From Gammaproteobacteria bacterium (lineage in GTDB: Bacteria; Pseudomonadota; Gammaproteobacteria; SZUA-152), in contig JAKIUN010000026.1 of the NCBI GenBank assembly GCA_021647505.1, forward strand, positions 1 through 46,227: 46,227 nt of DNA. The letters run 5' to 3'. Shown in pieces: positions 28,928-46,103 of this stretch; within the stretch, counting starts at the first letter, position 1, and every line of letters begins with the position of its first letter. The notes under the pieces were generated by a model that saw only the letters and a program-made list of their open reading frames with translations, did not search any database and was not told the origin of the DNA. Both the position numbers and the translations under genes were made by a program.

Positions 28928-29605
28928 CTAATCTGACAAAGTAGAATTAAGGGGCATGCGCGTTTCTTGGGCAGGCAAGGTGGTTTGATCCCCAGTCATT
29001 AACATCCCTTCACGGATTAAAAAATCAATCACAACATCCAGACCTTCGCGGCTTTTTAGCTGGGTAAAGACAAAGGGCTTGCGACCACGCATGCGCTGAC
29101 TGTCGGTGTTCATTACCTCCAGGGATGCGCCCACCATCTCGGCGAGATCAATCTTGTTGATGACCAGAAGGTCAGACTTAGTAATACCAGGGCCGCCTTT
29201 ACGCGGGATTTTTTCACCGGAAGCAACGTCGATGACATAAATCGTCAGGTCCGCCAGTTCCGGGCTGAAGGTTGCACTGAGATTGTCGCCACCACTTTCG
29301 ATAAAGATGATGTCGAGATCCGGAAATTTCTGGGACAGATCCTCAACGGCGGCCAGATTCATGGAGGCATCTTCGCGAATAGCGGTGTGCGGGCAACCAC
29401 CGGTCTCTACGCCGACGATGCGCTCTGCTTCCAGTGCCTGTGCTTCAGTGAGGATGCGCTGGTCTTCGCGGGTATAGATGTCATTGGTGACCACGGCGAT
29501 GCTGTAATCATCGCGCATGGCCTTGCACAATTGCTCAAGCAGGGCGGTCTTGCCGGAGCCGACCGGACCACCGACACCGACGCGTAAGGGGGCCTTTGAG
29601 TGCAT
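28928..29605 (-). CDS. ureG: Urease accessory GTPase UreG
   Basis: 225 residues, SIMIBI-class GTPase that drives nickel insertion into urease with UreD/UreF and UreE. The P-loop GGPVGSGKT is at 12-20. The metal-binding Cys-Pro-His ([13 protein letters not shown]) and the NKIDLA guanine-specificity motif are present. AAGGAA precedes the ATG. It is the last gene of the operon; a MITE-like repeat lies immediately downstream. Confidence 0.97.
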
Positions 29606-29669
29606 ATTTTATTCCTTATTTGATGTGATTCGAATATTTCATGACAGACAGATTCATGCAATGTCCGGG

Positions 29670-30374
29670 TCAGGATCTGAATAAACGGCTGTACTGGGTT
29701 TCATGCAGGCTGCTGGCAATGGCCTGGGCCGGCGTGCTGGTGCCGAGGGCATCATCCTCAAGTGTGGTGGCATGCTCAACGGTGGCGCTAATTTCTGCGC
29801 TGAATTGGTACAAGAGCTGCTGGCCTTCGGTTTGTCCTAACGGCACCAGCTTGATGGCGGCCGCAACCGTGTTTTCCAACCAGCTCCAGGTGTAACCCGT
29901 GAGTAAATCCTGTAAGGGAATCCGCCAATGATGTGCGGCCAATGCATAAGCTGAGAGTTGGCAACACAAGAGAGAGGGGCGCCAGTTTTCCAGCTGCGGC
30001 CAGTCGTGGCTGTCGGGTAGTTGTTGCAATACCTTTAACAAGGCCCGTGCCCGCTGCTGTTCTTCGTTGCGTAGCTCGGAGGTCTCACGACTGGCGTACA
30101 GCCATTGAGCCCAATATTGGAAATCCTCGTGATTGTTATTTTTCACGGCAGCAAACAGCCGGACTAACAGGGGTAGTTCGAGGGTTTGCAGGCTGTCGTC
30201 CAATACGGACTTCAACCAGTGACGGGTGTCCGCTTTGTTTTGTATCCAGCCGCACTCAACGGCCCATTCCAGCCCTTGCGAATAGGTAAAGGCACCGGTC
30301 GGCAGGTTCGGGCTGATTAACTGCAGTAAACGCAGGCCTGGCAGGCTGGGGTTGGCTAAACCCATGTCAGGCAT
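29670..30374 (-). CDS. ureF: Urease accessory protein UreF
   Basis: 234 residues, all-helical UreF with the N-terminal LLQLISPNLPTGAFTYSQGLE motif region and the C-terminal tail LHETQYSRLFRS typical of the family. It bridges UreD-bound apo-urease and UreG. The start at 30374 is chosen because its ATG overlaps the stop of the upstream small gene (ATGCCTGA); an ATG three codons later is possible. The gap to ureG is 64 bases. Confidence 0.95.
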   Translation of the reverse strand: MPDMGLANPSLPGLRLLQLISPNLPTGAFTYSQGLEWAVECGWIQNKADTRHWLKSVLDDSLQTLELPLLVRLFAAVKNNNHEDFQYWAQWLYASRETSELRNEEQQRARALLKVLQQLPDSHDWPQLENWRPSLLCCQLSAYALAAHHWRIPLQDLLTGYTWSWLENTVAAAIKLVPLGQTEGQQLLYQFSAEISATVEHATTLEDDALGTSTPAQAIASSLHETQYSRLFRS

Positions 30375-30618
30375 GGTTTGCTGTTGTTGCCCGCAGGCGT
30401 GCGGAGCGTGCGCCTGCCAACCGGTTGAACAGACCGATGAGCAGGGCGGCGATGAATAAAATCCCAAGAATGAGCCCTGTGCCTGTGCCCGCTATTTCAA
30501 CACCGTGGGCCCAGGCGTGGGCAAGCAGACCCGTTGACAGACTGTTGTCATGTGCCTGTGCCAATGGAGATGTCAGGATTGCGCCAAGGGTAAGCAGTAT
30601 TTTGTTCCAAGCTTTCAT
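30367..30618 (-). CDS. Small exported membrane protein inside the urease operon
   Basis: 83 residues. A signal peptide (ILLTLGAILTSPLAQA, cleavage near 22) is followed by a short His-containing segment (HDNSLSTGLLAHAWAHG) and one TM (about 43-64), with a basic tail. AGGAG lies seven bases upstream of the ATG. It is not full-length HupE/UreJ, which has six helices, but has the same position and a His-rich start, so it could be a minimal nickel-related helper. Function unknown. It overlaps ureF by 8 bases and lies 10 bases after ureE. Confidence 0.75.
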   Translation of the reverse strand: MKAWNKILLTLGAILTSPLAQAHDNSLSTGLLAHAWAHGVEIAGTGTGLILGILFIAALLIGLFNRLAGARSARLRATTANHA

Positions 30619-30628
30619 GGGATGCTCC

Positions 30629-31099
30629 TTATTCGTGGTTATGTGAATGATGGTGGCCTTCAGCGGCCTGTTGATAGGCGCCGGCCTCTGGTTCAAAGGG
30701 GGCTTGCTCAACAACCAGCGCAAGACCCATTTGTCGCAACATGTCATCCAGCACATGGTCGTGTTGGTAACGTAGCCAACCCTGTTCCACTTGCAGAGGA
30801 ACGTGGCGATTGCCCAGATGATAGGCCGCACGGGCCAGCAGGGTGGAGTTATGGCAATGGACGGTGGAAACGGTTTCGACTGCAGCGATCAGTTCAATAA
30901 CCAGTCCGTTATCACTGCCGAGTCGATCACCGCCCCGCAACAAGGTGCCACGGGGCAAAAACAGACCAACGTCGCGGCCATCATCCAGACTGGCGCGCAG
31001 GCGGCTGCGCACCCGCTGTTCGATGGGCAGGGTCAGCCGGCCATCGATAGTGCCACATGGATTAACTCTCGCAGCAATAATGTGTGTCAGTTCAATCAT
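30629..31099 (-). CDS. ureE: Urease accessory protein UreE, nickel chaperone
   Basis: 156 residues. UreE delivers nickel to the UreG/UreF/UreD complex. The N-terminal peptide-binding domain (about 1-70) and C-terminal metal domain (about 75-145) are present, with the HCHNSTLLARAAYHLGNRHV motif that holds the interface His. The His-rich tail HHHSHNHE (149-156) is a shorter form of the K. aerogenes tail and should bind extra Ni2+. It follows ureC by three bases. Confidence 0.95.
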   Translation of the reverse strand: MIELTHIIAARVNPCGTIDGRLTLPIEQRVRSRLRASLDDGRDVGLFLPRGTLLRGGDRLGSDNGLVIELIAAVETVSTVHCHNSTLLARAAYHLGNRHVPLQVEQGWLRYQHDHVLDDMLRQMGLALVVEQAPFEPEAGAYQQAAEGHHHSHNHE

Positions 31100-31102
31100 G
31101 GT

Positions 31103-32806
31103 TTAAAACAAAAAATAACGTTGCGCCATGGGTAGTACAGTGGCGGGTTCACAGGTCAGCAGTTCACCATCGGCACGTACCTCATAGGTCTGTGAATTGA
31201 CCTCGATGTGCGGCGTGTAACTGTTGTGGATCAAGTCTTGTTTTTTGACATTACGGCAGTTTTTTACCACAGCCACTTTTTTTTGTAATCCCAGTTGTTC
31301 AACAATGCCAGCGGACATGGCCGCAGCGGAAACAAAAGTCATACTGGTTGAATCCAGAGCCTTGCCGAAACTGCCGAACATGGGGCGGGAGTGCACTGGC
31401 TGTGGTGTGGGAATTGAGGCATTGGCATCCCCCATCAGCGCCTGGGCGATCAGTCCCCCCTTGATAACCAGTGCGGGTTTGATACCGAAAAAGGCCGGTG
31501 ACCACAGTACCAGATCGGCCAGTTTGCCCACCTCCACTGAACCGACCTCGTGGGCGATGCCGTGGGTAATGGCCGGGTTGATGGTATATTTTGCAATATA
31601 ACGTTTCACCCGGTTATTGTCGTTGTCCGTGCTGTCGCCCTTCAGTGCACCACGCTGTACTTTCATTTTATGTGCGGTTTGCCAGGTGCGGGTGATGACT
31701 TCACCGACCCGGCCCATGGCCTGTGAATCGGAGGAGATCATCGAAAAAGCGCCCAAGTCATGCAAGATATCTTCGGCGGCGATGGTCTCGCGGCGAATGC
31801 GGGATTCGGCAAAGGCCACGTCTTCAGCGATACCGGCATCGAGGTGATGACACACCATCAGCATATCCAGATGTTCATCAATGGTGTTGACGGTATAAGG
31901 CCGCGTCGGATTGGTGGAGGAGGGCAGGACATTGTCGAGCCCACAGGCACGGATGATGTCCGGTGCATGGCCGCCACCGGCGCCTTCGGTGTGATAAGTA
32001 TGAATAGTGCGGCCTGCAAGGGCGGCAAGGGTGTCTTCCACAAAGCCGGATTCGTTCAGGGTATCGGTATGAATCGCTATTTGTATATCGAGCACTTCTG
32101 CAACGTTCAGGCAATTGTGAATGGCCGCCGGCGTGGTGCCCCAGTCTTCATGCAGCTTGAGGCCCATGGCGCCGGCGGCGACTTGCTCATGCAAGGCATC
32201 GGGCAGACTGGCATTGCCCTTTCCCATAAAACCCAGATTCATGGGAAAGGCCTCGGCGGCTTCCAACATGCGGTGGATATTCCAAGGCCCCGGCGTGCAG
32301 GTGGTGGCATTGGTGCCACTGGATGGGCCGGTGCCACCGCCGAGCATGGTGGTGATACCCGAGGCCAGCGCTTCTTCGATCTGTTGTGGGCAGATAAAAT
32401 GAATATGGGCGTCGATACCCCCGGCGGTGATAATCTTGCCTTCGCCACCGATCACGTCCGTGCCGGGGCCGATAATAATATCGACATTGTCCTGCACATC
32501 GGGGTTGCCCGCCTTGCCAATGGAGGCGATACGCCCATTTTTAATGCCAATGTCGGCCTTGACGATGCCCCAGTGATCGATGATCAGCGCATTGGTGATG
32601 ACCAGGTCGACGACTTCCGCAGAGACGGCCTGTGATTGCCCCATGCCATCACGAATGACCTTGCCGCCACCGAATTTGACTTCATCGCCATAGGTGGTGA
32701 AGTCCTTTTCCACTTCAATCCACAGTTCGGTATCCGCCAGGCGTAACTTGTCACCGCAGGTAGGGCCAAACATTTCCGCGTAGGCCTGCCGGCTCATGCT
32801 TGCCAT
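31103..32806 (-). CDS. ureC: Urease alpha subunit UreC
   Basis: 567 residues, catalytic subunit hydrolysing urea to ammonia and carbamate. All dinuclear nickel ligands are visible at standard numbering: H134 and H136 (DAHIHF), carbamylated K217 (GLKLHEDWG), H246, H272 and D360. The flap MVCHHLD has C319 and H320. The N-terminus [10 protein letters not shown] and C-terminus [13 protein letters not shown] are complete, so the enzyme should be active. The start codon overlaps the ureB stop by one base (TAATG). Confidence 0.98.
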
Positions 32807-33135
32807 TAGTGCGCCTCCCCCGAGGCGTCATTCAGCGGCCCCATGATCTTGCCCTGAAAGCCATACACGATACCCTTACCGGCAAAGCTTACCAATTCAA
32901 CGCTACGCTGTTGCCCTGGCTCAAAACGCACTGCGGTGCCGGCTGGGATGTTGAGCCGATAGCCACGGGTTTTTTCTCGCTCGAATTCCAAGGCCATGTT
33001 GGATTCGTAAAAATGATAATGTGAACCAATTTGAATCGGCCGGTCGCCCGTGTTGGCGACATCAATACGCAAGGTTGCGCGTCCTGAATTGATCTCGATA
33101 GTGCCTTCGCGGATCTTCATTTCGCCTGGAATCAT
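32806..33135 (-). CDS. ureB: Urease beta subunit UreB
   Basis: 109 residues of the urease structural beta subunit, with the conserved start [11 protein letters not shown], the [19 protein letters not shown] segment and [15 protein letters not shown]. The ATG at 33135 is chosen because GGAG lies six bases upstream; a TTG four codons earlier is contained in that site. The stop overlaps the ureC start. Confidence 0.96.
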
Positions 33136-33158
33136 CAGTTTCTCCAATGCTTGTGCAA

Positions 33159-33461
33159 TCAGGTAATCGGTTGATGTACGGTGACCAGTTTGGTGCCATC
33201 CGGAAAAGTGGCCTCGACCTGCACCTCATCAATCATCTCTGCGATGCCATCCATGACCTGGTCCACGCTGAGTATCTGACGGCTTTCATTCATCAGTTCG
33301 GCCACCGTCTTGCCATCACGGGCGCCTTCCATAATGGCGGCGCTGATATAGGCTATGGCCTCGGGATAGTTGAGTTTGACGCCGCGCGCCAGCCGGCGTT
33401 CAGCCAGCAATGCCGCGGTAAACAGGAGCAATTTGTCTTTTTCACGCGGGGTTAAATTCAT
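33159..33461 (-). CDS. ureA: Urease gamma subunit UreA
   Basis: 100 residues, the standard length for the separate gamma subunit, starting [12 protein letters not shown] and containing [14 protein letters not shown] and the C-terminal [14 protein letters not shown]. It assembles with UreB and UreC as a heterotrimeric unit. The gap of 139 bases to ureD holds an inverted repeat. Confidence 0.97.
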
Positions 33462-33540
33462 AAATTTGCCTTTTTTTGAGCAGCGTACTGTTTATAAACA
33501 TACGTCGAAACAATGGTTGTGTTTTTTCTGTGGGGCTCGT

Positions 33541-33604
33541 GTAGGGTGGGCACTGCCCACCATTGATACCAGGACAGAATAGAATTGGTGGGCGGTCACT
33601 CTAC
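33541..33604. repeat. GGTGGGCA-type inverted repeat between ureD and ureA
   Basis: The left arm 33541-33563 (GTAGGGTGGGCACTGCCCAC) is an imperfect reverse complement of the right arm 33583-33604. The left arm contains its own hairpin GGTGGGC ACT GCCCACC. The right arm runs into the end of ureD and supplies its stop codon. A related GTGGGCA..TGCCCACCCTAC motif lies in the element at 28645-28918. Confidence 0.75.
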
Positions 33605-34473
33605 GTTGCCCATATTCGTGGCTGTAGCGCTGACCGGCCAAGCAGCTTTGGGCGTAATATGTGCCAGATTTCAGTGAGCTTCTGCCTCAAGCTTTCGCCG
33701 TTGTTTCCCAAGCCACGAACCACCAGCAGGCCATCGATAAGTGTGACTCCCAGCCGTTTCGACGCGCCGTTTTTAATCAGATATTCACGTACCGACTCAA
33801 GATGGTCTTCGCTACAGGGAAAGGCCAACAGGGTCGCTTGTATAGGGTGGCCACGCAGGCCTGCTGCTGCGGACAGGGTTTTTTTGTCGAGCACGCGCTG
33901 GTTTTCCACCAGTAACAATTGCTGGTTATGATAAAATGACAGCCGGGAATCAAAGCCGCCGTGGTCAAATCGTTCATGGCTGGCGGGACGCCCCAGGCAA
34001 CTGATATCCCAGCCGATAAAGACGGCGTCATCTTCCAGTTCGATGCGGGTGCGGACGCGTAAGCGAGCGCCGGCAAAGAGAATGTTTTCCTGCGGCAGCC
34101 ATTCGAGGCTGGCGCCGGCCTTGATACGGAAGCTTTGTTGCAGAAATGCCCATTCGCCGGCACTCAAATAGAATTTACCGGAGCCAGGGGTAGTGCACAG
34201 CACTTGCGCCTTATTGGCAACCTCCAGCGTAATTTGCAGTTGATCGCCGCCGACCACACCACCGGGCGGATGAAGAATATAGACATGTGCGAGGTTTCCC
34301 TCGGGATAAAAGGGGCGTTGCACACGTAGCGGGCCAATGTGCCGGCTGTGCTTTATTTGGGTGCGTGAAACGGGGGCGCATGAATTGTTTTGTGCAAAAC
34401 CCAGCTCCAGTTGTGCCAGCCAGCCGGCGGAGGCTGTCGTATTTTTCTCCTGTAGCAAAGACGCCGGATTCAT
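33601..34473 (-). CDS. ureD: Urease accessory protein UreD (UreH)
   Basis: 290 residues. UreD is the scaffold that binds apo-urease and recruits UreF and UreG. The family motifs HPPGGVVGGDQL, TTPGSGKFY, LEWLPQENILF and GWDISCLGRPAS are present. Its ATG overlaps the urtE stop (ATGA), tying the urease genes to the urea transporter genes in one transcript. The last few codons and the stop fall in a dispersed inverted repeat, so the C-terminus may have been altered by that insertion. Confidence 0.95.
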   Translation of the reverse strand: MNPASLLQEKNTTASAGWLAQLELGFAQNNSCAPVSRTQIKHSRHIGPLRVQRPFYPEGNLAHVYILHPPGGVVGGDQLQITLEVANKAQVLCTTPGSGKFYLSAGEWAFLQQSFRIKAGASLEWLPQENILFAGARLRVRTRIELEDDAVFIGWDISCLGRPASHERFDHGGFDSRLSFYHNQQLLLVENQRVLDKKTLSAAAGLRGHPIQATLLAFPCSEDHLESVREYLIKNGASKRLGVTLIDGLLVVRGLGNNGESLRQKLTEIWHILRPKLLGRSALQPRIWAT

Positions 34474-35165
34474 ACGGTCAAATATTCCTTGATCAATGCT
34501 TTGGAGAGTTTATCTACCTGGCCTTTGGCGACCGGGCGTCCACGGTCGAGGATACAGAATTTATCGGCCACTTTTTTTACAAAGGGTAATTTTTGCTCCA
34601 CCAGCAAAACCGTCATACCCATTTCCCGGTTGAGTCTGCCGATGATGTCGCCGATTTCCGCCACGATGTTGGGTTGAATGCCCTCTGTTGGCTCATCCAG
34701 AATCAGCAATTTTGGATCGATGACCAAAGCACGCCCCACCGCCAACTGTTGTTGCTGGCCACCGGACAGATCGCCGCCGCGGCGTTGATGCATTTCTTTC
34801 AGTACCGGAAACAGCTCATAGATGAATTCCGGTATCTTGCGTGCGCGGTCGGGCCGGGCCGGTAAGCCAATTTGCAGATTTTCCTCCACGGTCAGCATGG
34901 GGAAAATCTGCCGGCCCTGCGGCACATAACCAATGCCGTGTCTTGCCCGCTGTTCCATAGGCAGGGAGTGCAAGGCCATGTCTCGATAATGGATCTCGCC
35001 AGACGCAATGGGCAGGGCGCCCATAATGCAATTGAGCAGGGTGGTTTTGCCGACACCATTACGGCCCATCAGGCAGGTGCATTCACCTTCACTGACGTCA
35101 AGATCAATATCCCACAGGGTGTGGCTTTGACCGTAAAACTGGTTGAGACCACGGATCGTTAACAT
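34470..35165 (-). CDS. urtE: Urea ABC transporter ATPase UrtE
   Basis: 231 residues, LivF-type ATPase. Walker A GRNGVGKTT near 34-42, QLAVGRAL after the signature LSGGQ, and Walker B ILDEPTEGIQPNI, whose GIQPNI form is typical of UrtE. It powers high-affinity urea uptake with UrtD. It is coupled to ureD by a four-base overlap. Confidence 0.95.
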   Translation of the reverse strand: MLTIRGLNQFYGQSHTLWDIDLDVSEGECTCLMGRNGVGKTTLLNCIMGALPIASGEIHYRDMALHSLPMEQRARHGIGYVPQGRQIFPMLTVEENLQIGLPARPDRARKIPEFIYELFPVLKEMHQRRGGDLSGGQQQQLAVGRALVIDPKLLILDEPTEGIQPNIVAEIGDIIGRLNREMGMTVLLVEQKLPFVKKVADKFCILDRGRPVAKGQVDKLSKALIKEYLTV

Positions 35166-35191
35166 GTGATTTTTTTACTCATTTGCCGGGT

Positions 35192-36022
35192 TTATTCACC
35201 GAGATAGACTTCAATCACCCGCGGATTTGATTGCACTTCAGCCATGCTGCCTTCCGCCAGCACACCCCCCTGGTGCAATACCGTGACCTTACGTGCGATG
35301 GAGCGCACAAAGTCCATGTCGTGTTCCACAACGATGACCGTGTGCTTACCGGCCAATGACGTGAGCAACTCTGCGGTACGCTCCATTTCCTGGTGAGTCA
35401 TGCCGGCCACCGGTTCGTCCACCAGCAGCAAGGCCGGCTTCTGCATTAGTAACATGCCGATCTCCAGCCATTGTTTTTGACCGTGAGAGAGCTTTCCAGC
35501 CGGATCAGCCGCCAACGCATTGAGGCCGATAATGGTCAGTACTTCATCGATCAGTTCACGCTGTTCCGCGTTGAGTCTTGCCACCAGCAACGGCCAGACC
35601 CGCTTGTCTTGTGACATGGCCAGTTCGAGATTTTGGGACACCGTGAGATTTTCAAACACCGTGGGTTTTTGGAATTTTCGCCCGATGCCTGCCTCGGCAA
35701 TCTCCGGTTCATCCATTTCCAGGAGATTCAGGCGTTGACCGAACCAGGCCTGGCCCGTGTCCGGGCGGGTTTTGCCGGTGATGATATCCATCATGGTGGA
35801 TTTTCCCGCACCATTGGGGCCGATGATACAGCGCAACTCACCGGTTTCGATATACAAATTGAGATTGTTGATGGCCTTGAAACCGTCAAAACTTTTGTTG
35901 AGACCTTCAAGATATAAAATAATATTGTGACTGACATCGAGTTCGGGAGGAACGGCCTTGACCAGAAAATCAAACACCCGGTCACGACGTGAAAACTCGC
36001 GCAAGATATGCATGGCTTTCAT
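35192..36022 (-). CDS. urtD: Urea ABC transporter ATPase UrtD
   Basis: 276 residues, LivG-type ATPase with Walker A GPNGAGKST, the LSHGQKQWLEIGMLLMQ signature and Walker B LLLVDEPVAGM. The first 40 residues before the ATPase core are an extension often seen in UrtD. The ATG at 36022 overlaps the urtC stop (ATGA). It pairs with UrtE. Confidence 0.95.
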   Translation of the reverse strand: MKAMHILREFSRRDRVFDFLVKAVPPELDVSHNIILYLEGLNKSFDGFKAINNLNLYIETGELRCIIGPNGAGKSTMMDIITGKTRPDTGQAWFGQRLNLLEMDEPEIAEAGIGRKFQKPTVFENLTVSQNLELAMSQDKRVWPLLVARLNAEQRELIDEVLTIIGLNALAADPAGKLSHGQKQWLEIGMLLMQKPALLLVDEPVAGMTHQEMERTAELLTSLAGKHTVIVVEHDMDFVRSIARKVTVLHQGGVLAEGSMAEVQSNPRVIEVYLGE

Positions 36023-37107
36023 GTCTTTTCTCTCCGCATGCTTCGTAAGCCGACGATGCCCTTGGGTAGGTAGAGGGTAACTAATATGAACAAGGCGCCC
36101 AGCGCATACAACCATACTTCGGGCATGGCAGCGGTGAAATAGGTCTTGGCATAGTTCACCAGTATGGCGCCGATGATTGCGCCATAGAGTGTGCCACGAC
36201 CGCCAATGGCGACCCAGATCAGTAATTCAATGGAATTCAGGGGGGAAAATTCACCGGGATTGATGATGCCGACTTGTGGCACATACAGGGCACCGGCAAC
36301 GCCTGCCATAATGGCAGAGAAGACAAAAACCCATAATTTGATATTTTCAACCCGGTAACCGCAGAAACGGCTGCGGCTTTCGGCATCGCGAATGGCGACA
36401 CTGGCCAGGCCCAGACGCGAGCTGACGATGATCCGGCTCAACACATAACCGATGGCCAGGGCCGCCGCCGAGGCCAAAAACAGGGCAATGCGGGTGCTGT
36501 CTGCGCGCAGATCAAAACCCAAAATATCCTTGAAATCCGTCAGACCGTTGTTGCCACCGAAACCCATTTCATTGCGAAAAAAGGCCAGCATCAGTGCATA
36601 GGTCATGGCCTGGGTGATAATGGACAGGTAGACACCGGTGACGCGGGAGCGAAACGTTAGATAACCGAACACATAGGCCAGTATGCCGGGCACCACCATA
36701 ACCATCAATGCAGCAAACCAAAACTGGTCGAAGCCATACCAAAACCACGGCAGCTCCTGCCAGTTGAGAAAGACCATAAAATCCGGTAGCACGGGGTCGC
36801 CATAAACACCCCGTTCACCGATCTGACGCATCAGATACATACCCATGGCGTAGCCACCCAGGGCAAAAAAGGCCGCATGACCCAGGGTGAGAATGCCCAG
36901 ATAACCCCACACCAGATCGGCGGACAGGGCCAGCAGGGCATAGGTCAAATATTTGCCGAGCAAGGTAACGGTGTAGGTGGAAAGGTGAAAAGCGCTGTTT
37001 TCCGGCACCAGCAGATTCAATACCGGCACGACAATGCTGACGACCAACAGGATGGCCAGCAGCCAGGTGCCAGGCTTGTCACTTCTTATAATCTTCATCA
37101 ATAGCAT
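36019..37107 (-). CDS. urtC: Urea ABC transporter permease UrtC
   Basis: 362 residues, LivM-type permease with about nine to ten TMs. Segments such as LVWGYLGILTLGHAAFFALGG, QAMTYALMLAFFRNEMGFGG and LYVPQVGIINPGEFSPL are characteristic of UrtC. GGAGG, within the end of urtB, precedes the ATG by 8 bases. It forms the membrane channel with UrtB. Confidence 0.95.
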   Translation of the reverse strand: MLLMKIIRSDKPGTWLLAILLVVSIVVPVLNLLVPENSAFHLSTYTVTLLGKYLTYALLALSADLVWGYLGILTLGHAAFFALGGYAMGMYLMRQIGERGVYGDPVLPDFMVFLNWQELPWFWYGFDQFWFAALMVMVVPGILAYVFGYLTFRSRVTGVYLSIITQAMTYALMLAFFRNEMGFGGNNGLTDFKDILGFDLRADSTRIALFLASAAALAIGYVLSRIIVSSRLGLASVAIRDAESRSRFCGYRVENIKLWVFVFSAIMAGVAGALYVPQVGIINPGEFSPLNSIELLIWVAIGGRGTLYGAIIGAILVNYAKTYFTAAMPEVWLYALGALFILVTLYLPKGIVGLRSMRREKT

Positions 37108-37110
37108 GAA

Positions 37111-38760
37111 TCAGTCCTCCGCTGCCCGGCCGCGCTGAGGGAACAGGCCCTTAGGACGTTTTTGTATAAACAGAATAATAAAAATCAGCACCAGGATTTT
37201 TGCCAGCACCGCCCCGGCCCAAGGCTCCAGCAGTTTATTGATGACCCCAAGGCTCATGCCGGCCACCAAGGTGCCCCACAGATTACCGACACCGCCAAAT
37301 ACCACCACCATGAAAGAATCAATGATGTAGGCCTGGCCGAGGTTTGGCCCTACATTGGTCAGTAGACTTAATGCCACACCGGCCAGGCCGGCAATGCCGG
37401 AGCCCAGGCCAAAGGTCAATGCATCAACCCATGTTGAGCGTACGCCCATGGCGCGCGCCATATTGCGATTTTGTGAGACGGCGCGAACCTGTAAGCCCAG
37501 GGTGGTTTTTTTCATCACCATGATAAGTGCCGCAAACACTGCCAGACAGAAAAGAATGATGTATAAACGATTCCAGGTTAGCGCTAACACTTCATTGATC
37601 TGCCAGGCGCCAGACATCCATTGCGGTGTTTCGACACTACGATTCAATGGCGAAAAAATCGTACGCACGGTTTGCTGCAATACCAGACTGACACCAAAGG
37701 TGGCCAACAGGGTCTCCAGTGGGCGGCCATACAAATGACGAATGACACTGCGTTCAATGGCGATACCCACCAGTCCGGCAACAATAAAGGCCGCTGGAAT
37801 GGCCACCAGTATCGAGGCGCCAATATTGTTCGGCATTAATAGCTGAACCACATAAGTTGTGTAGGCACCGATCATCATGAGTTCACCGTGGGCCATATTG
37901 ATAACCCCCATCACACCGAAGGTGATGGCAAGGCCAATGGCCGAAAGTGCCAGCACCGAGCCCAGGCTTAGGCCAAAAAATATCGTTTCAGCTTTGGCAT
38001 AAAGATCACGCTTATCATCGATCTTTTTGATGGCCGATTGGGCTGCATTTTTTAACGTCTCAGTGGGTGCCTGATAGTCTCTCAAGGCGTTCATGGCTGA
38101 AGAATTGAGGCTTTGGGAAAGTGTTTTAATGGCTGATCGTTGTTCGGTTTCATCACCTTTTTCAAGCTGAATGACGGCCAGCAGCGTTTGCATGGCGGTG
38201 GTTACCCGGCTGTCGGTTTCACTTTCCACGGCCTTTTTAATCAGGTGGGAGGCGCTAATCTCGGGTTTTTTCAAAAGCTCCTGTACGGCCGCCAGTCTGA
38301 TGTCAGCATCCTTGTGCTTGAGCTGCATTACCGCGAGCAGTTGACGAATGGTACTGCGCAGACGGTTATTGACTTTTACTTTCTTAAAGCCCCGTCTGTT
38401 TTCCTGGCTTATCTGTTCACCAGAAAAAACGGGGCTAAAGGTATAGTTGTCGCCGGTTTCTTGTAAAAAATAAAGTGCCTTGTCGTGTTTGGAGTAATAC
38501 AGCTGTCCTTCCAGCATGGCCTTCATGACAGGAAGGGCTTGCGGTGGGTTTTGCCGTGCGATGGTTTCAAGGGCTTTGGCTTTGTTGTTGTAGTTTTTGC
38601 TGGGCAGCGTTTTCCAGGCATCATCCAGTAAATCATTGTCGGGTATTTCTTCGGCCAGAACCTGTGGCGCAGGGACACTGATCATGCACAGAAACAGCAA
38701 TAGTGAAATCGGTTTTCTCACCAGGGCTGCTATTGAAAATGGCGACATATGTGGTCTCAT
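37111..38760 (-). CDS. urtB: Urea ABC transporter permease UrtB, with long N-terminal domain
   Basis: 549 residues. A signal peptide (about 15-36) leads into an extracytoplasmic helical region of about 220 residues with HEAT-like repeats (MQLKHKDADIRLAAVQELL), then a LivH-type permease domain (about 262-549) with GVMGVINMAHGELMMIGAY. The N-terminal extension is known in many UrtB proteins and may contact UrtA. ATGs at 38760 and 38748 are both possible starts. The gap from urtA is 167 bases and contains a long-loop hairpin. Confidence 0.93.
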   Translation of the reverse strand: MRPHMSPFSIAALVRKPISLLLFLCMISVPAPQVLAEEIPDNDLLDDAWKTLPSKNYNNKAKALETIARQNPPQALPVMKAMLEGQLYYSKHDKALYFLQETGDNYTFSPVFSGEQISQENRRGFKKVKVNNRLRSTIRQLLAVMQLKHKDADIRLAAVQELLKKPEISASHLIKKAVESETDSRVTTAMQTLLAVIQLEKGDETEQRSAIKTLSQSLNSSAMNALRDYQAPTETLKNAAQSAIKKIDDKRDLYAKAETIFFGLSLGSVLALSAIGLAITFGVMGVINMAHGELMMIGAYTTYVVQLLMPNNIGASILVAIPAAFIVAGLVGIAIERSVIRHLYGRPLETLLATFGVSLVLQQTVRTIFSPLNRSVETPQWMSGAWQINEVLALTWNRLYIILFCLAVFAALIMVMKKTTLGLQVRAVSQNRNMARAMGVRSTWVDALTFGLGSGIAGLAGVALSLLTNVGPNLGQAYIIDSFMVVVFGGVGNLWGTLVAGMSLGVINKLLEPWAGAVLAKILVLIFIILFIQKRPKGLFPQRGRAAED

Positions 38761-38927: not shown

Positions 38928-40223
38928 CTAGTAGTTTTGGCCACTGCATTTTTTCGTTTTGACATTGTAGCTTCCACAAGACAGCGGTGTGCGCCAGTCC
39001 GCAATCATATCCTTGGAGCCCGGCAGATAGTCGGACCAGGCATCACCCGCCACCAGCCCCGAGGTTTCCCAAACAATATCAAACTGGCCATCTTTCTGAA
39101 TTTCACCGATCAGTACCGGCTTAGTGATGTGGTGATTGGGCATCATTGCCGAGTAACCCCCGGATAAATTGGGCACACTGACACCGATCAGTGCTTCCTG
39201 AACGGCGGTGGGATCCGTGGTACCGGCTTTTTCAACGGCTTTAATCCACATATTGAAGCCGATGTAGTGTGCCTCCATGGGGTCATTGGTTACCCGTTTT
39301 TTGTCCTTGATGAATGTCTTCCAGGCACTGATGAAGTCTTCATTTTCATCCGACTCAACGCTCATAAAGTAATTCCACGCAGCCAGGTGGCCGACCAAAG
39401 GCTTGGTGTCAAGGCCGGAAAGCTCTTCTTCACCGACCGAGAATGCAAGCACGGGAATGTCTTCAGCAGAAATGCCCTGATTACCCAGTTCCTTATAGAA
39501 GGGGATATTGGCATCACCATTGATCGTCGATACCACCGCAGTTTTCTTACCGGCACTACCGAATTTTTTGATATCGGAAACGATGGACTGCCAGTCGGAA
39601 TGACCAAAAGGTGTGTAATTGATCATGATGTCTTTTTCCTCGACGCCTTTTGCAAGGAGATAGGCCTTAAGGATCTTATTGGTGGTGCGTGGATAGACAT
39701 AATCAGTGCCGGCCAGAACCCACCGTTCGACACCAATGTCATCCATCAGATACTCAACGGCCGGTATGGCCTGCTGATTCGGCGCCGCACCGGTGTAAAA
39801 TACATTTTTCGAGGATTCTTCACCTTCGTATTGCACGGGATAGAACAGAATGCTATTGAGTTCCTCGAATACCGGCAGTACGGATTTGCGGGAAACAGAA
39901 GTCCAGCAGCCAAAAACCACATCGGTCTTGTTCTTGGAAATAAGTTCGCGTGCCTTTTCTGCGAATAGGGGCCAGTTGGAGGCCGGGTCGACAACGACGG
40001 CTTCGAGTTTTTTACCCAGTAGGCCGCCTTTCTTGTTTTGTTCATCGATGAGCATCAGCATGGTATCTTTCAGGGTGGTTTCTGAAATGGCCATGGTACC
40101 GGACAATGAGTGCAATATGCCGACCTTGATGGTGTCTTCGGCCCAGGACAGGCCCGCGCTGGACAGGGATACCGTGGTGATTGCCGTCGCCAGCGCCAGT
40201 TTTTTCAGCGTTGCTTTTATCAT
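38928..40223 (-). CDS. urtA: Urea ABC transporter substrate-binding protein UrtA
   Basis: 431 residues. The signal peptide ends near SWA28. The mature part (DTIKVGILHSLSGTMAISE) is a type I periplasmic binding protein of the urea/short-chain amide group, with conserved FGCWTSVSRKSVLPVFEE and FYPVQYEGEESS segments. It captures urea in the periplasm. AGGAG lies 8 bases before the ATG. Confidence 0.96.
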   Translation of the reverse strand: MIKATLKKLALATAITTVSLSSAGLSWAEDTIKVGILHSLSGTMAISETTLKDTMLMLIDEQNKKGGLLGKKLEAVVVDPASNWPLFAEKARELISKNKTDVVFGCWTSVSRKSVLPVFEELNSILFYPVQYEGEESSKNVFYTGAAPNQQAIPAVEYLMDDIGVERWVLAGTDYVYPRTTNKILKAYLLAKGVEEKDIMINYTPFGHSDWQSIVSDIKKFGSAGKKTAVVSTINGDANIPFYKELGNQGISAEDIPVLAFSVGEEELSGLDTKPLVGHLAAWNYFMSVESDENEDFISAWKTFIKDKKRVTNDPMEAHYIGFNMWIKAVEKAGTTDPTAVQEALIGVSVPNLSGGYSAMMPNHHITKPVLIGEIQKDGQFDIVWETSGLVAGDAWSDYLPGSKDMIADWRTPLSCGSYNVKTKKCSGQNY

Positions 40224-40257: not shown

Positions 40258-41397
40258 TTAAATCTGGAATTGCATGCCGAAGGTAACGGCGGTGGTGTCG
40301 TCACCTTTGGCGCCGCTGGCATTGGCATCGCCATTGGTCAGATTCAGGTTTAATTTAAGCTTATGATCGGAAATTATATAGTTGACACCCATCTCGGTCA
40401 GTGAGCTGCTTGCACCCACCGAGGGGCTGTTATTGGTGTGGCGTACATAGGGCTGATACATCCCTGCGCCGCCGGTATTGCCAATCAGATAAGCAAAGCT
40501 GGCAAAATAGGCTTCACCGTCAAACATCGAAAAGACCGGCGTTGCCGCATCGGTGGAGATGTCAAAGGACTTGTACTCCGCTTCGACCGTTACTGCGGCG
40601 CCATCACCCAATGGTTTCTCAAATAAACCATCAATGGCATAACCCGTGAAAGAGCCCGATTGTGTAATCGTGCCATAGCCGTCATCCTGTGACTGGATCG
40701 AGAAGGCCAGGGTGAGGATATCGCCACCTTTACCAAAATAGGTGCTGCTGGTGTAGTAGCCGGGATTGGATTCCTGGTCAAGGATATTGTAGGCGAAGCG
40801 GGCTGCGTACAAGGGCGCATCCGTTTGATTTTCAGCGCCGCTATAGCCATCGAATATGCCGACTGCGTACTGAAATTTTCCCAGCGAACCCCAGGCCGTG
40901 ATGCCTTCGTCACGGCCGTAAGTACCTGCCGCGCCATTGGCGCCGTTACCGATGTCGTTGTCTGATGGGTAAAGAGGAACGGTATACTGCCCCCAGGTCA
41001 GGCTATAAAACGGGCCATTCATTTCTATGCGGTCGGCCGGGGTCAGCATACGTCCCATCCACACATTGAATGCCTTGCCGGGCTCATACTGGATGATGGC
41101 ATCCAGTACGCCATATTCACCCCACATTTTGTCAGTGCCAAAATAGAACTTGAAGTCTTTACTGGCTTGACCAGAGACATACAAACGCATGTTTTCCAAG
41201 TTAAAGTTACTGGCGCGACTGCTACCATCCGGTGCGGCATCACTCACCGAGCTGATGGAGGTACGGATGCCGGCGCCAAAACTGACCCAGCGGGTATCAT
41301 TAATAACGATTTTCCCACCGGCCAAGACCGGTGCACTGCTTACGGCGAGAAAACCCGCCACAAGCAGTGACGTCCCAACTACATTTTTTATTTGCAT
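40258..41397 (-). CDS. Outer membrane porin, probably for urea or short amides
   Basis: 379 residues. The signal peptide ends near VLA26. The rest shows alternating hydrophobic/polar beta strands and ends in the outer-membrane-type C-terminal Phe-x-Ile region (GMQFQI). It resembles the phosphate-selective-porin/FmdC-like group found beside amide and urea transporters. AGGAAA precedes the ATG. It is the first gene of the operon, only 34 bases before urtA, so it likely admits urea to the periplasm; selectivity is inferred from context only. Confidence 0.85.
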   Translation of the reverse strand: MQIKNVVGTSLLVAGFLAVSSAPVLAGGKIVINDTRWVSFGAGIRTSISSVSDAAPDGSSRASNFNLENMRLYVSGQASKDFKFYFGTDKMWGEYGVLDAIIQYEPGKAFNVWMGRMLTPADRIEMNGPFYSLTWGQYTVPLYPSDNDIGNGANGAAGTYGRDEGITAWGSLGKFQYAVGIFDGYSGAENQTDAPLYAARFAYNILDQESNPGYYTSSTYFGKGGDILTLAFSIQSQDDGYGTITQSGSFTGYAIDGLFEKPLGDGAAVTVEAEYKSFDISTDAATPVFSMFDGEAYFASFAYLIGNTGGAGMYQPYVRHTNNSPSVGASSSLTEMGVNYIISDHKLKLNLNLTNGDANASGAKGDDTTAVTFGMQFQI

Positions 41398-41766
41398 TTC
41401 GAGTTTCCTGTAGCGACAGTCAATGGCCGATGAGAGATCAACAAATATCGAGGGAAAGCGCTGAAAATGAGGCAGGTGAACGGTTCAGGCGGCCTTCTTG
41501 AGGTTTTAGTCTATCGGGGCATGCACAGGGGAAGAATTCGTCATGTAGCATAGGTAGGTACGTCAAATGACGCATGGTAAAAAAATTCTGTTTAGGCTAG
41601 GGGTTTGGGCCGTTTAGAGCCATCTATCTGGCGGGTTTGCGGTAGACTTGGTGATGTCGGTGTTTAGGAGCGTGCACGTTTCTTATCTTTGCTCATCTGA
41701 GCCAGGCGATTGGCCGTCACGAGATGGCGGTCAGTGCCGGCGATGCAATAGGTGTAACAGATCTCG
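41398..41766. promoter_or_regulatory. Divergent control region of urea operon and permease-kinase
   Basis: 369 bases between divergent genes and the natural place for promoters of both. CGTCA-AA-TGACG at 41561-41572 is a perfect inverted repeat, preceded by GTAGCATAGGTAGGTA (41545-41560), and could bind the LuxR-type regulator encoded at 45168-46103. No strong sigma-70 or sigma-54 consensus was found. No gene is seen here. Confidence 0.5.
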
Positions 41767-44700
41767 ATGAACAAGAATAAAGACGCACAACGAATCCGGC
41801 GCGAATACAATCAGTGGGTCGCCAATGAAACACTGGAAGACTATGCCCTGCGGTATACCGCTAAACATGCACGGCGCTGGTCTCCGGGTTGGGTTGCCAA
41901 TACCGCGCTGGGGATCATTTCTTTCCTCGCACTGGAAGCCATCGGCGGCACCATCACCCTGAATTATGGCTTCAGCAACGCCATGTGGGCGATATTGGTG
42001 GTGGGAGGCATTATCTTTCTGTCCGGATTACCGCTTGCCTATTATGCCGCGCGCGATAGCATCGATATCGATCTTCTCACCCGTGGCGCCGGTTTTGGTT
42101 ATATCGGTTCCACTGTTTCATCACTAATTTACGCCTCATTCACCTTTATATTCTTTGCCATTGAAGCGGCCATCATGTCGATGGCCATCAATATGACTAC
42201 GGGTATTCCGATGTCGCTGGCCTATTTCATCAGCACCATCGTGGTGATCCCCCTGGTGACTCACGGCATCACGCGTATCTCTCATTTTCAGGCCTGGACA
42301 CAACCGCTGTGGCTATTTTTGCAAATTCTGCCGCTGGTATTTATCGGCATGCACGAGTCTGAAGCCTTTTCGCAATGGCTTACGTTTGGTGGTTCTGCCG
42401 CCGGGGAAGAGCAGGGGTTTGAACTGCTGCTGTTTGGTGCGGCGGCAGCGGTAATTTTCCCCCTGATCGCCCAGAATGGCGAACAGGCCGATTTTTTACG
42501 GTTTTTACCGCCGCGAACCCAACAGAATAAAACCCAATGGTGGCTGGCCGTGGTGGGCGCCGGGCCGGGTTGGGTGGTATTCGGTGTCATCAAGCTGTTT
42601 ATCGGCTCATTCCTCGCGGTGCTCGCCCTGAATCATGGCCTATCTCCCACCTTGGCCGATGACCCGGCACATATGTACGCCGTGGCATTCAATTACATCA
42701 CGGTAAATCCCGATATGGCACTGTGGCTGGCGGGTATTTTTGTGGTCATTTCACAGTTGAAGATCAATGTTACCAATGCCTATGCCGGATCTATCGCCTG
42801 GGGTAATTTCTTCTCACGGTTGACGCACAGTCATCCGGGGCGTGTGGTATGGCTGGTGTTCAATGTGACGATTGCATTGATGCTGATGGAGCTTGGACTT
42901 TATCAGGCCTTTGAAAGCATTTTGATTACCTACGGCTGTCTGGTGGTCGCCTGGGTCGCTTGCGTGGTAGCGGATCTGGTGATCAACAAGCCGCTGGGCC
43001 TGAGTCCGGCGCATATTGAGTTCAGACGCAGTCACCTGTACGACATCAATCCAGTAGGTGTGGTATCGATGCTTATCGCCTCCTGCGCCGGTATTCTCGC
43101 CAATTTGGGTCTTTTTGGCGAGCTTGCAGAGGCCCTGGCCGCCTTCATATCCTTGCTGATTCCTTTTGTTACGGTACCGCTGATCGCCTGGCTCACCCGG
43201 GGGCGGTATTATCTTTGTCGTCAAGCGGAGGAAGACGCCGTGCCTGAGTCGCCACATGAGGCAACACAACAACGTTGCCAGGTTTGTGAAAATTGTTTTG
43301 ATCACGAAGATATGAGCCAGTGTCCGAGTTATGATGGCGCGATTTGCTCATTGTGCTGTGCATTGGATTCCCGTTGTGGTAATCAGTGCCGTCCGCATGC
43401 CCATCTATCGGTACAATCATCGTCACTGTTCAGCCGGATACTGCCGGCGTTCATTTACCAGCGACTGAATTCTGTCACGGGACATTTTTTGGGTATGTTC
43501 TTCATAACCACCGGCATTATCGCCGGCTTGCTCGCGGTGGTTTTTTATGCTCAGCAAAACAAGACAGAAGCTGATTTGATATTGATCAGTGGTGCATTAT
43601 GGCAAGTATTTTTCCTCTTGATGTTGATCACCGGTGTCTTGGTCTGGCTTTATGTGCTGGCCCAGCAAAGTGCCCGTTTCGCTCTCAATGAAACACGGCA
43701 GCAAGCGGAATTGCTGGCCAATGAAGCAGAGGCACACGAGCAAACCGCGATAGAATTGGCGCAGGCGCGTGATACGGCCAACGCGGCCAACCAGGCAAAA
43801 TCGCGCTATTTGTCAGGTGTCAGTCATGAGCTAAGGACACCGCTTAACACCATTTTTGGTTATTCTCAGCTGATGGAGGCCGATGCCCGGCTGGACACAA
43901 AAAACAAAAAAATATCATCGGTGATAAGACGCAGCAGTGAACACCTTTCGGATGTCATTGAGGGTCTGTTGGAAATTTCAAAAATCGAAGCACACAAGTT
44001 TGATTTGCATCGGGATACGGTGGATCTGCAGTTATTGATTCAGCAACTTGAAGATATGTTTCGGCCACTCGCGAAGGATAAAGGTATTGATTTTGTTGTT
44101 AATTGTCAGGCGGAACTGCCTCGATTTGTTTCCACCGATGAGAAACGGCTACGGCAGATTTTGTTGAATTTGCTGTCAAATGCCATAAAATTTACGCTTG
44201 AGGGTAAAGTTGAGCTGCAAATCACCTACCGGAATCAGGTTTCCCGCATGATCGTCAGAGATACCGGCATAGGCATTGCCGAGAACGACCAGTCAAGGGT
44301 TTTCGAGCCCTTTGAGCGGGTGCACAATAAACAGACTCAACTGATTAGTGGTACAGGGCTGGGTTTGTCCATTAGCCGCCTGTTAGTGGAAATGATGGGT
44401 GGCAATCTTGAGCTGAAAAGCCAGCTTGGGCAAGGCACTGAATTTTGTCTGAGTCTTTTTTTACCGAGTGTGTCTGAACGTCTTACGGCCAGTCAGGGTC
44501 ATGCCAACATCTGTGGCTATGAAGGGAAACCCCGCCACATCATGGTTGTGGATGATGAAAGCAGTCATCGGCACTTGATTCGTGATTTATTGCAACCGCT
44601 GGGCTTTGTCGTTCATCAGGCAGAGTCGGCCGAACAGACATTTGCCCTGTTAGACGGGCGGCTTCAGTCCATTGATTTGTTCTTGTTGGACATCAACATG

Positions 44701-45168
44701 CCTGAAGTCAATGGTTGGCAATTATTGGAAGAACTCCGCCGGCGTGGTTTTGAAAAGTCCATCATCCTCCTTTCGGCCGATCCGTATGAAAATGCCACAC
44801 TACAGCAAAAAGAGACGGACTTTGATGCCTATATCAATAAGCCAGTGCGAATTGAAAAATTACTTGAACAATTGCAGCGTTGTCTTAATTTGCAGTGGCG
44901 TAGTGTTCAACCCGTTTCAGAAATAGATACAAGAAACAGCGGCGATGATGTGGTATTTCAGCCAGACCAGGACAGCATTGAATCATTGAGAAATTCTGCC
45001 AGTATGGGCTATTTGAATGGGGTTATCGCGTGCACTGAATCGCTTGAATCACAGTATCCACGATCACCTTGGGTTGCAAGGATAAGGGCCCTGACAGATA
45101 AATGTGATCTCGATAGTATTACTCGAATGATTGATGAATTGGCTGAATCCAATGGCAAGGTATCCTGA
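41767..45168 (+). CDS. NCS1-type permease fused to hybrid sensor histidine kinase
   Basis: 1133 residues. Residues about 35-478 form a twelve-helix permease like the NCS1 nucleobase/cytosine/allantoin family. Then comes a cysteine cluster (C504, C507, C510, C519, C527, C530, C531, C537 and C541) likely to bind metal, and two more TMs (about 572-594 and 606-632). A coiled coil (640-675) leads to HisKA with phosphoacceptor H687 (VSHELRTP), HATPase with N-box NLLSNAIKF and G boxes DTGIGIA and GTGLGLS, and a receiver (about 923-1040) with D975. A final helical part may be an HPt-like or linker region. The layout recalls CbrA-type transporter-kinases with another transporter family. It is divergent from the urea operon, overlaps the regulator gene by one base, and is probably a sensor for urea or a related compound. 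Confidence 0.88.
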   Translation: MNKNKDAQRIRREYNQWVANETLEDYALRYTAKHARRWSPGWVANTALGIISFLALEAIGGTITLNYGFSNAMWAILVVGGIIFLSGLPLAYYAARDSIDIDLLTRGAGFGYIGSTVSSLIYASFTFIFFAIEAAIMSMAINMTTGIPMSLAYFISTIVVIPLVTHGITRISHFQAWTQPLWLFLQILPLVFIGMHESEAFSQWLTFGGSAAGEEQGFELLLFGAAAAVIFPLIAQNGEQADFLRFLPPRTQQNKTQWWLAVVGAGPGWVVFGVIKLFIGSFLAVLALNHGLSPTLADDPAHMYAVAFNYITVNPDMALWLAGIFVVISQLKINVTNAYAGSIAWGNFFSRLTHSHPGRVVWLVFNVTIALMLMELGLYQAFESILITYGCLVVAWVACVVADLVINKPLGLSPAHIEFRRSHLYDINPVGVVSMLIASCAGILANLGLFGELAEALAAFISLLIPFVTVPLIAWLTRGRYYLCRQAEEDAVPESPHEATQQRCQVCENCFDHEDMSQCPSYDGAICSLCCALDSRCGNQCRPHAHLSVQSSSLFSRILPAFIYQRLNSVTGHFLGMFFITTGIIAGLLAVVFYAQQNKTEADLILISGALWQVFFLLMLITGVLVWLYVLAQQSARFALNETRQQAELLANEAEAHEQTAIELAQARDTANAANQAKSRYLSGVSHELRTPLNTIFGYSQLMEADARLDTKNKKISSVIRRSSEHLSDVIEGLLEISKIEAHKFDLHRDTVDLQLLIQQLEDMFRPLAKDKGIDFVVNCQAELPRFVSTDEKRLRQILLNLLSNAIKFTLEGKVELQITYRNQVSRMIVRDTGIGIAENDQSRVFEPFERVHNKQTQLISGTGLGLSISRLLVEMMGGNLELKSQLGQGTEFCLSLFLPSVSERLTASQGHANICGYEGKPRHIMVVDDESSHRHLIRDLLQPLGFVVHQAESAEQTFALLDGRLQSIDLFLLDINMPEVNGWQLLEELRRRGFEKSIILLSADPYENATLQQKETDFDAYINKPVRIEKLLEQLQRCLNLQWRSVQPVSEIDTRNSGDDVVFQPDQDSIESLRNSASMGYLNGVIACTESLESQYPRSPWVARIRALTDKCDLDSITRMIDELAESNGKVS

Positions 45169-46103
45169 TGCAGAGATTTAAGGACAAGACAACCGTGCTG
45201 GTTGTGGATGATTCACCGGATTCATTGAGCATGGTCAATCTTGCTCTGGACGAAGCAGGTATCGCGGTACTGATAGCGCTCAATGGCCAACAGGCCATGA
45301 ATGTCCTCGATAAAATTACGCCCGATATTATTTTGATGGATGCCATCATGCCAGTGATGGATGGTTTTGAATGTGCCAGTGAGATTCGAAAACGATTACC
45401 GCTGATCCCGATTATTTTCATGACCGGCCTCAGTGAAGTTGAACATATCGTCAAGGCATTTGATGCCGGGGGCAATGATTACATTGTCAAGCCAATCCAT
45501 CCTGAAGAATTACTGGTACGTATCCGCCAGCATATCAACAGCACACGCATGTTGATGGAGGCACAAAAGGCGCTGGATTCACTGCGCCAATATGTATTTT
45601 GTATCGACAATCGAGGGAATATTTTGTGGGCGACTCCAGAGGCTCAAACCTTGTTGGATCAAGCACAAACAGAAGCGGATTCAATAAGGCTGGAGGAACG
45701 ATTCAGCCGCTGGTTACCCAATGGTCAGGTTGGACATGATTTGGCCTTGCCGTTGAAAAAACAGGATACCGTGCTGACCGTGTACTATTTCAAACAGACC
45801 GAGGAAGATGAATATCTTCTGAAAATTCAATCGCCCAATGTTGAAATTGATCCGGCAATTCTGGAACAGAAGCTGGCCATAACCTACCGTGAAGCAGAAG
45901 TTTTACTTTGGTTAGCGCACGGCAAAACCAATCGGGAAATTGCCGAAATTCTTGAAATGAGCCCAAGAACCGTGAATAAACATCTGGAGCAGATGTTCCC
46001 CAAGATCGGCGCGGATAATCGCACCGTTGCCGCCTCCATTGCTATACAAATCATTCTCGGTGGGCGTATTGGGCGTCCGCCAAACCAGGAAGGCTCTATT
46101 TAG
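45168..46103 (+). CDS. Response regulator, REC plus PAS-like plus LuxR HTH
   Basis: 311 residues. The receiver (about 8-125) has D14/D15, phosphoacceptor D58 in LMDAIMPVMDG, T86 and K108. A middle region (about 135-225; FCIDNRGNILWATPEAQTLL) is PAS-like. The C-terminal LuxR/GerE HTH is about 232-295 (TNREIAEILEMSPRTVNKHL). Start and kinase stop overlap as TGATG. It is the obvious output partner of the permease-kinase, and the divergent porin-urt-ure operon is its most likely target (inference). The stop TAG is the first codon of the terminal inverted repeat; the tail after the HTH seems natural in length. Confidence 0.9.
   Translation: MQRFKDKTTVLVVDDSPDSLSMVNLALDEAGIAVLIALNGQQAMNVLDKITPDIILMDAIMPVMDGFECASEIRKRLPLIPIIFMTGLSEVEHIVKAFDAGGNDYIVKPIHPEELLVRIRQHINSTRMLMEAQKALDSLRQYVFCIDNRGNILWATPEAQTLLDQAQTEADSIRLEERFSRWLPNGQVGHDLALPLKKQDTVLTVYYFKQTEEDEYLLKIQSPNVEIDPAILEQKLAITYREAEVLLWLAHGKTNREIAEILEMSPRTVNKHLEQMFPKIGADNRTVAASIAIQIILGGRIGRPPNQEGSI

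Follow-up and report, generated by a model that had tools for sequence, protein, structure and literature searches.

In the window, a stretch of 46,227 nucleotides from a gammaproteobacterium placed in SZUA-152 (assembly GCA_021647505.1, contig JAKIUN010000026.1, positions 1 to 46,227), two genes lie side by side on the plus strand, one coding for a transporter fused to a hybrid histidine kinase, the other for a LuxR-type response regulator. The ATG of the regulator at 45168 overlaps the stop codon of the kinase. On the opposite strand a porin-urtABCDE-ureDABCEFG operon runs from 41397 down to 28928. An earlier note, made from the sequence alone, had placed both open reading frames at these positions and had the fusion transcribed away from the urea operon. 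This holds, and Pfam searches confirm the hybrid kinase and its coupled LuxR-type regulator. The features of the locus are the following:

41767..45168, plus strand: transporter-kinase fusion of 1133 aa, consisting of an NCS1-fold domain, a cysteine-rich (Cys) domain, a hairpin of two transmembrane helices (TMs), HisKA, HATPase and a receiver domain (REC)
41767..43236, plus strand: NCS1-fold transporter domain, residues 1-490, with invariant E133, Q236, E239, D242, K332, N334 and N337
43276..43389, plus strand: Cys domain, residues 504-541, with eight invariant cysteines and a variable C510; predicted strands and a short helix
43474..43665, plus strand: two extra TMs, residues ~570-633, the second continuous with a signalling helix to 654
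43795..43992, plus strand: HisKA, residues 677-742, phospho-acceptor H687 (Pfam)
44134..44463, plus strand: HATPase_c, residues 790-899 (Pfam)
44539..44874, plus strand: C-terminal REC of the fusion, residues 925-1036, phospho-acceptor D975 (Pfam)
45168..46103, plus strand: LuxR-type response regulator of 311 aa, Pfam REC at 10-119 and GerE/LuxR helix-turn-helix (HTH) at 238-292; invariant D14, D15, D58 and K108
41559..41574, without strand: predicted operator TACGTCAAATGACGCA, one mismatch against TACGTCANNTGACGTA
40258..41397, minus strand: porin, with which the divergent operon begins, matching NCBIfam porin_ExtI below its cut-off
38928..40223, minus strand: urtA, binding protein of the urea ATP-binding cassette (ABC) transporter (PF13433, 1.3e-165)
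34470..38760, minus strand: urtB, urtC, urtD and urtE, matched to annotated urt genes
28928..34473, minus strand: ureD, ureA, ureB, ureC, ureE, a small open reading frame, ureF and ureG, matched to annotated ure genes of locus L018

The fusion is a hybrid histidine kinase with a HisKA containing the H box, an HATPase with its G boxes and a REC with its Asp; the motifs are HELRTP at 687, DTG at 832, GTGLGL at 862 and LLDI at 973. The regulator, which has a REC with the conserved Asp and Lys followed by a LuxR HTH, is of the LuxR/NarL type. At the kinase loci 89 adjacent LuxR-type regulators were found on the same strand, with the invariant REC residues and the HTH. A complete transporter fold and HisKA-HATPase in one open reading frame, together with a partner regulator, place the system in the broad class of transceptors. 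The small open reading frame in the gap between ureE and ureF (30367-30831) resembles, from about residue 72, a fragment of a HupE/UreJ-type nickel-handling membrane protein.

A profile of the N-terminal part matches 69 of 397 sampled Pseudomonadota genomes. In 65 of them (~16%) the match is strong, nearly all being full fusions, and such a recurrence of the architecture is well beyond chance. A further 527 plasmid records match, 342 of which are from Klebsiella. The genes around the kinases are much the same everywhere: among the kinase loci with 7 kb or more available upstream, 116 of 122 have urt, ure or formamidase (fmd) genes, and in a broad sample over phyla and classes this was the case for 45 of 49 neighbourhoods, so that the homologues are far from rare near urea genes. 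The usual order is fmdB-fmdA-(amiE)-urtEDCBA or ureCBAD-urtEDCBA, divergent from kinase and regulator. Annotated urtABCDE genes diverge from kinase homologues in Chelatococcus, Klebsiella, Azospirillum, Shinella and Rhizobium, in many Burkholderiales the kinase is divergent from ureABCEFG, and in Methylovirgula it directly faces a formamidase. One of the Klebsiella plasmids (L016) carries the kinase-urt-formamidase cluster next to the ClpK heat-resistance island; the cluster may explain some of the fitness value of such plasmids.

The intergenic regions contain a common word. TACG-N5-TGAC occurs in 47 of 93 non-redundant regions against 0.5 in shuffles (all operator shuffles were made with two-letter blocks), and this enrichment led to the palindrome TACGTCA-NN-TGACGTA. 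Its core, allowing 2 mismatches, was found in 63 of 134 anchored upstream regions of kinases against 0.1 per shuffled set, and a looser form, TRCG-N8-CGYA, in 90 of the 134 against about 9. Before urtA the core is present at 67 of 104 loci with a kinase and at none of the 15 urtA genes from genomes in which no kinase was found (Fisher 1e-6, kinship ignored); the corresponding numbers for the loose form are 89 of 104 and 1 of 15 (Fisher 2e-9, likewise ignoring kinship). At five loci where the operon lies apart from the kinase (L184, L203, L072, L073 and L095) the site stays before urtA. In L241 the porin-urt genes begin some 1.9 kb away from the kinase, and the site is found before the porin; in L035 it is about 160 bp before fmdA. 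Two genomes from the window's own family, G007 and G010, lack the kinase; their urtA has 78-82% identity and no site. The site in the window, at 41559-41574, is 161 bp before the porin start. A pattern search of the 3.74-Mb genome found no other site with one mismatch or less, and the regulon is therefore probably the porin-urt-ure operon alone. A second enriched intergenic word, ACCC-N5-TTGT, proved to be where the coding sequence of the kinase begins (YNRWVAN) and was rejected as an operator.

It could be objected that a kinase of unrelated function happens to lie beside a urea operon. The loci without urea or amide genes, which would speak for this, are few, and the conservation of the neighbourhood across Alpha-, Beta- and Gammaproteobacteria and plasmids, as well as the dependence of the operator on the presence of the kinase, argue against it. 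As a general explanation chance is refuted by the neighbourhood counts and the kinase-dependent operator, and we give it next to no credence. We consider it likely that the fusion and the regulator form a two-component system controlling the divergent porin-urt-ure operon, with the NCS1-fold domain as the receptor for urea. That a sensor fused to a transporter goes with the divergent urea operon was also the central proposal of the earlier note, and the 45 of 49 neighbourhoods, the conservation of the cysteines and the shared palindrome bear it out.

That note had called the N-terminal domain a nucleobase-type transporter of the NCS1 family. An AlphaFold model of the fusion, based on an alignment of 54 sequences, has a mean predicted local distance difference score (pLDDT) of 86.5 and a predicted template modelling score (pTM) of 0.88. 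In the model a LeuT-type bundle is followed by the Cys domain and then by two long helices, ~570-595 and 601-654, the second running into the signalling helix; these are the two extra TMs which had been expected after the Cys segment. The nearest solved folds are CodB (Z 34.2 over 397 residues, 17% identity) and Mhp1 (Z 29.2), with the next family at 25.7. The Pfam, NCBIfam and PDB sequence searches gave no useful match for residues 1-655. The NCS1 profile PF02133 (TC 2.A.39) did not match the window protein or 13 members of A1 at E values up to 10, and it has 0 matches in the window's own genome. A hidden Markov model of the family does reach L165 (3e-47) and L215 (1.3e-14), both of which are themselves above the PF02133 cut-off, while a direct hhalign comparison with CodB is weak (E 0.0025, TM1-TM5 only). 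The domain is thus NCS1 by its fold and by profile links, not by a direct Pfam match, and the assignment stands in the former sense and falls in the latter.

By fold and by alignment with CodB, W108, S203 and N280 of CodB correspond to F129, position 232 and N334 of the fusion. K332 takes the place of T278 in CodB, which is expected to be a ligand of Na+, and coupling is therefore probably not to sodium. E133 sits one turn past F129, at a place which matches that of Q121 in Mhp1, known to be used there for the substrate; a carboxylate at this position would suit the NH2 groups of urea and amides. E133, Q236, E239, D242, K332, N334 and N337 are present in all 99 of the 99 typed kinases. Position 232 is S in 48 of 68 kinases of the formamidase type and A or P in 27 of 31 of the urease type, and we considered it as a specificity residue; a sign test over the 3-5 independent switches was not significant, and it is kept as a hypothesis only.

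Since the partner genes code for urease or for formamidase and aliphatic amidase, and the stand-alone permeases of the same transporter family have similar neighbours (see below), urea and short-chain amides fit as ligands. Allantoin, cytosine and hydantoin, which the earlier note had named as possible signals, find no support in these partner genes. An FmdA-type formamidase (FmdA_AmdA) was searched for in the genome of the window without a match, which makes urea the likely ligand there. One might instead suppose that a short-chain amide such as formamide or acetamide is the ligand in all members including that of the window, urea being gratuitous or secondary. Kinases typed with formamidase outnumber those with urease, 68 to 31, and the fmd genes of Methylophilus methylotrophus respond to both formamide and urea (PMC10781810). 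This is set against the lack of an FmdA_AmdA match in the window's genome and the urease encoded in its cluster. Moreover, the urease type forms its own clades in the kinase tree, and over the whole tree the operon type tracks the kinase with 5 changes against 26.6 in shuffles (FastTree; near-copies inflate the clustering). An amide as the general ligand is therefore rather improbable in our opinion, and we keep to urea as the ligand in the window.

The fusion has nine cysteines, at 504, 507, 510, 519, 527, 530, 531, 537 and 541. The nine of the cluster originally described are all there; eight of them (504, 507, 519, 527, 530, 531, 537 and 541) are invariant in the 54-member alignment and are found in 178 of 180 members of kinase length, and C510 is the one which is not conserved. 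Within the linker no stretch is conserved as rigidly as the Cys domain. Among the stand-alone permeases those near formamidase genes (L021, L126) have kept all eight cysteines, those near urease genes (L018, L216) just 504, 507, 527 and 530, and L019 and L165 have lost the pattern. The graded loss suggests two four-Cys metal sites, {504,507,527,530} and {519,531,537,541}. The secondary structure is predicted as beta-hairpins followed by a short helix and would resemble that of treble-clef zinc fingers. A comparison of the Cys and two-TM part alone with the PDB gave generic helical matches only (best Z 7.2), and a profile of this module was found solely in the present family among 276 genomes.

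Nickel is the cofactor of urease, and with eight invariant cysteines the cluster could be thought to be a nickel or redox sensor gating the kinase, with urease being produced only if its metal is available. A nickel input had also been suggested in the earlier note. It is disfavoured because the cluster is invariant with or without urease: it is equally so at formamidase-type loci without urease and in the stand-alone L126 and L021, and it is the urease-linked stand-alone L018 and L216 which retain only half of it. In addition one cysteine, C510, varies. The beta-hairpin and helix of the prediction also fit a structural zinc finger. We regard nickel or redox gating as very improbable; a structural two-metal domain of the zinc type is the more likely function of the Cys domain.

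Stand-alone permeases of the transporter family are found before urease genes in Acinetobacter and before an aliphatic amidase in Arthrobacter. Two relatives (L018:9998-11605 and L216:8415-10037) adjoin urease genes and two others (L019:9932-11608 and L126:1459-3138) adjoin genes for aliphatic amidase or formamidase; where annotated they are called "hypothetical protein", and they are probably an unnamed family of urea and amide permeases. Other combinations also occur. In L213 (6345-10016) PAS-GGDEF-EAL takes the place of the histidine kinase behind the same transporter and Cys module. The module thus also serves a different output, and the sensor seems there to feed cyclic di-GMP signalling as well. 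In L193 (7365-10022) and L196 (7380-10064) fusions lacking the REC stand before fmdA-fmdB, without urt genes, as a direct formamide sensor variant. L206 (9959-11815) is a hybrid kinase which has no transporter domain but keeps the two TMs and a remnant of the Cys segment, and it is followed by a convergent response regulator of the same family.

These relatives bear on the question of which part of the fusion reads the signal. The two-component system could control the operon with the NCS1 domain as a transporter or mere passenger, the signal being read elsewhere, whether in the cytoplasm, by the Cys domain or by REC. This would agree with what has been reported for CbrA, in which the SLC5 domain is not essential for signal perception (PMC9100948), with the Cys domain varying least within the linker, and with the L206 protein, which retains the Cys remnant, the two TMs and the kinase without a transporter. 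The pocket, however, is highly conserved, with its seven residues in all 99 typed kinases, and the occurrence of the transporter and Cys module ahead of PAS-GGDEF-EAL in L213 is what would be expected of a sensory module. In addition all the fusions examined have E57 in TM1, whereas four stand-alone members have Q or F, which suggests a domain adapted to sensing. E57 is a candidate for the difference between sensor and carrier, and a single ancestral change could account for it. A passenger domain seems to us unlikely on balance, yet it is the alternative which we take most seriously.

In the model with the NCS1-fold domain as receptor, the domain would bind urea in this organism, in the pocket matching the substrate site of CodB and Mhp1, and the domains of sister clades would bind short-chain amides, e.g., formamide or acetamide. 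Its conformational state would reach the kinase by way of the cytoplasmic Cys domain, the probable seat of two structural metal ions, and the two-TM hairpin. The LuxR-type regulator, once phosphorylated by the kinase, would bind TACGTCA-NN-TGACGTA ~100-160 bp before the operon and activate it. The computations show the order of the domains, the fold, the eight conserved cysteines, the recurring neighbourhood and the operator together with its link to the presence of the kinase; the ligand, the receptor role of the NCS1 domain, the sense of the regulation, the metal, the phosphotransfer and the binding to DNA are inferred.

Several observations weigh against this model. The core operator is missing at 37 of the 104 loci, and at 15 of these loci even the loose form is missing. 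A sigma-70-type promoter was looked for in 41300-41850 and none matched. A few kinases (L185, L201, L213 and L214) are not near urt, ure or fmd genes in the DNA examined. Position 232, which tracks the operon type, has changed in 3-5 independent events only, and the literature we found contains no experiment on any member of the family. The main doubt comes from the CbrA precedent, which leaves room for a receptor other than the NCS1 domain.

Two other places in the window should be mentioned. A 303-aa open reading frame at 11021-11932 is an unusual tandem of globins (Pfam: Globin 26-127, Bac_globin 153-252), and at 4863-9652 genes for PspA/IM30, an ion channel protein and a glutathionylspermidine-synthase-type ATP-grasp protein resemble an envelope-stress cluster.

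Uptake and hydrolysis of amides and urea by a porin, an ABC transporter and an inducible hydrolase are known from M. methylotrophus, and its fmdCABDEF genes are induced by formamide and urea (Wyborn 1996; Mills 1998; both as cited in PMC10781810). That review names a putative positive regulator in the cluster and no sensor kinase, where the present loci have a transporter-kinase and regulator pair. The urt-fmdAB-amiE loci of Pseudomonas veronii and Ectopseudomonas guguanensis are, as noted in PMC13209695 and PMC13296017, of the same operon type. The latter, a genome paper from 2026, mentions an unnamed hybrid kinase and a LuxR regulator beside the urt operon; the excerpts of the two papers describe no fusion, operator or function. 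Our literature search, which fell short of most subscription papers, found no description of fusion, operator or function elsewhere; it gave SLC5-STAC and Amt fusions and no NCS1-kinase or sensor kinase for urea or amides. Little has been described of how bacteria sense urea and amides outside the cell, and the annotation of the fusion genes goes no further than "ATP-binding protein" or "hybrid sensor histidine kinase". Here a widespread sensor comes together with its regulator, operator and regulon, so that a single reporter is enough to test the function. Carrier and sensor can be compared in relatives which occur naturally in stand-alone and in fused form, the unnamed permease family is assigned a likely substrate range, and the family could supply a biosensor for urea or amides. 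The system very probably tells many bacteria of external urea and simple amides and switches on the genes for their uptake and breakdown.

CodB and Mhp1 are the nearest solved folds, and the pocket positions F129, 232 and N334 align with CodB. The fusion differs from both in the low identity (~13-17%), the lack of a PF02133 match and the additional Cys domain at the C-terminal end of the transporter, and from CodB in having K332 instead of T278, which would make it independent of Na+. The SSF (SLC5) domain had no Pfam match in the fusion, and with the best folds being NCS1 the test for SLC5 failed; STAC had no match in the Pfam and NCBIfam searches of the fusion, its linker being the Cys domain and the two TMs. 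The ammonium sensor kinase Ks-Amt5 is not known to have a Cys domain. This Amt-kinase fusion is similar to the present one in joining a membrane transporter fold to a histidine kinase with a nitrogen compound as signal, and different in having the Amt fold and belonging to an anammox bacterium (PMC5764959). There is a further likeness to the known SLC5-STAC kinases CbrA, CrbS and RpuS (PMC7096432, PMC5715377, PMC9100948, PMC13022988), whose regulators are CbrB, CrbR and RpuR and which also have the transporter domain N-terminal to the kinase. CrbS and RpuS are moreover hybrid kinases with LuxR-type regulators acting through short repeats, and the ACTU motif of CrbR, e.g., TACGACTAAAGTCTAAA, looks similar to the present operator (PMC5715377, PMC9100948). 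The differences are the NCS1 fold instead of SLC5, the Cys domain and two TMs instead of STAC-PAS, a regulon for uptake and hydrolysis of urea and amides, and the operator TACGTCA-NN-TGACGTA.

It is evenly balanced in our judgment whether the family makes up a distinct class of transceptor kinases. In such a class an NCS1-fold carrier would have been turned into a receptor for urea or amides (with the E57 signature, and K332 at the Na+ site), a two-metal Cys domain specific to the family would replace STAC, and the output would be a kinase or GGDEF-EAL (L213); with a dedicated regulon defined by its operator and several switches between amide and urea, it would be present in about one sixth of the Pseudomonadota genomes sampled as well as on hundreds of Klebsiella plasmids. 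The family would add a new transporter class to the transporter-kinase fusions: the kind of protein is known, and what is new is the transporter class, the linker, the regulon and the operator.

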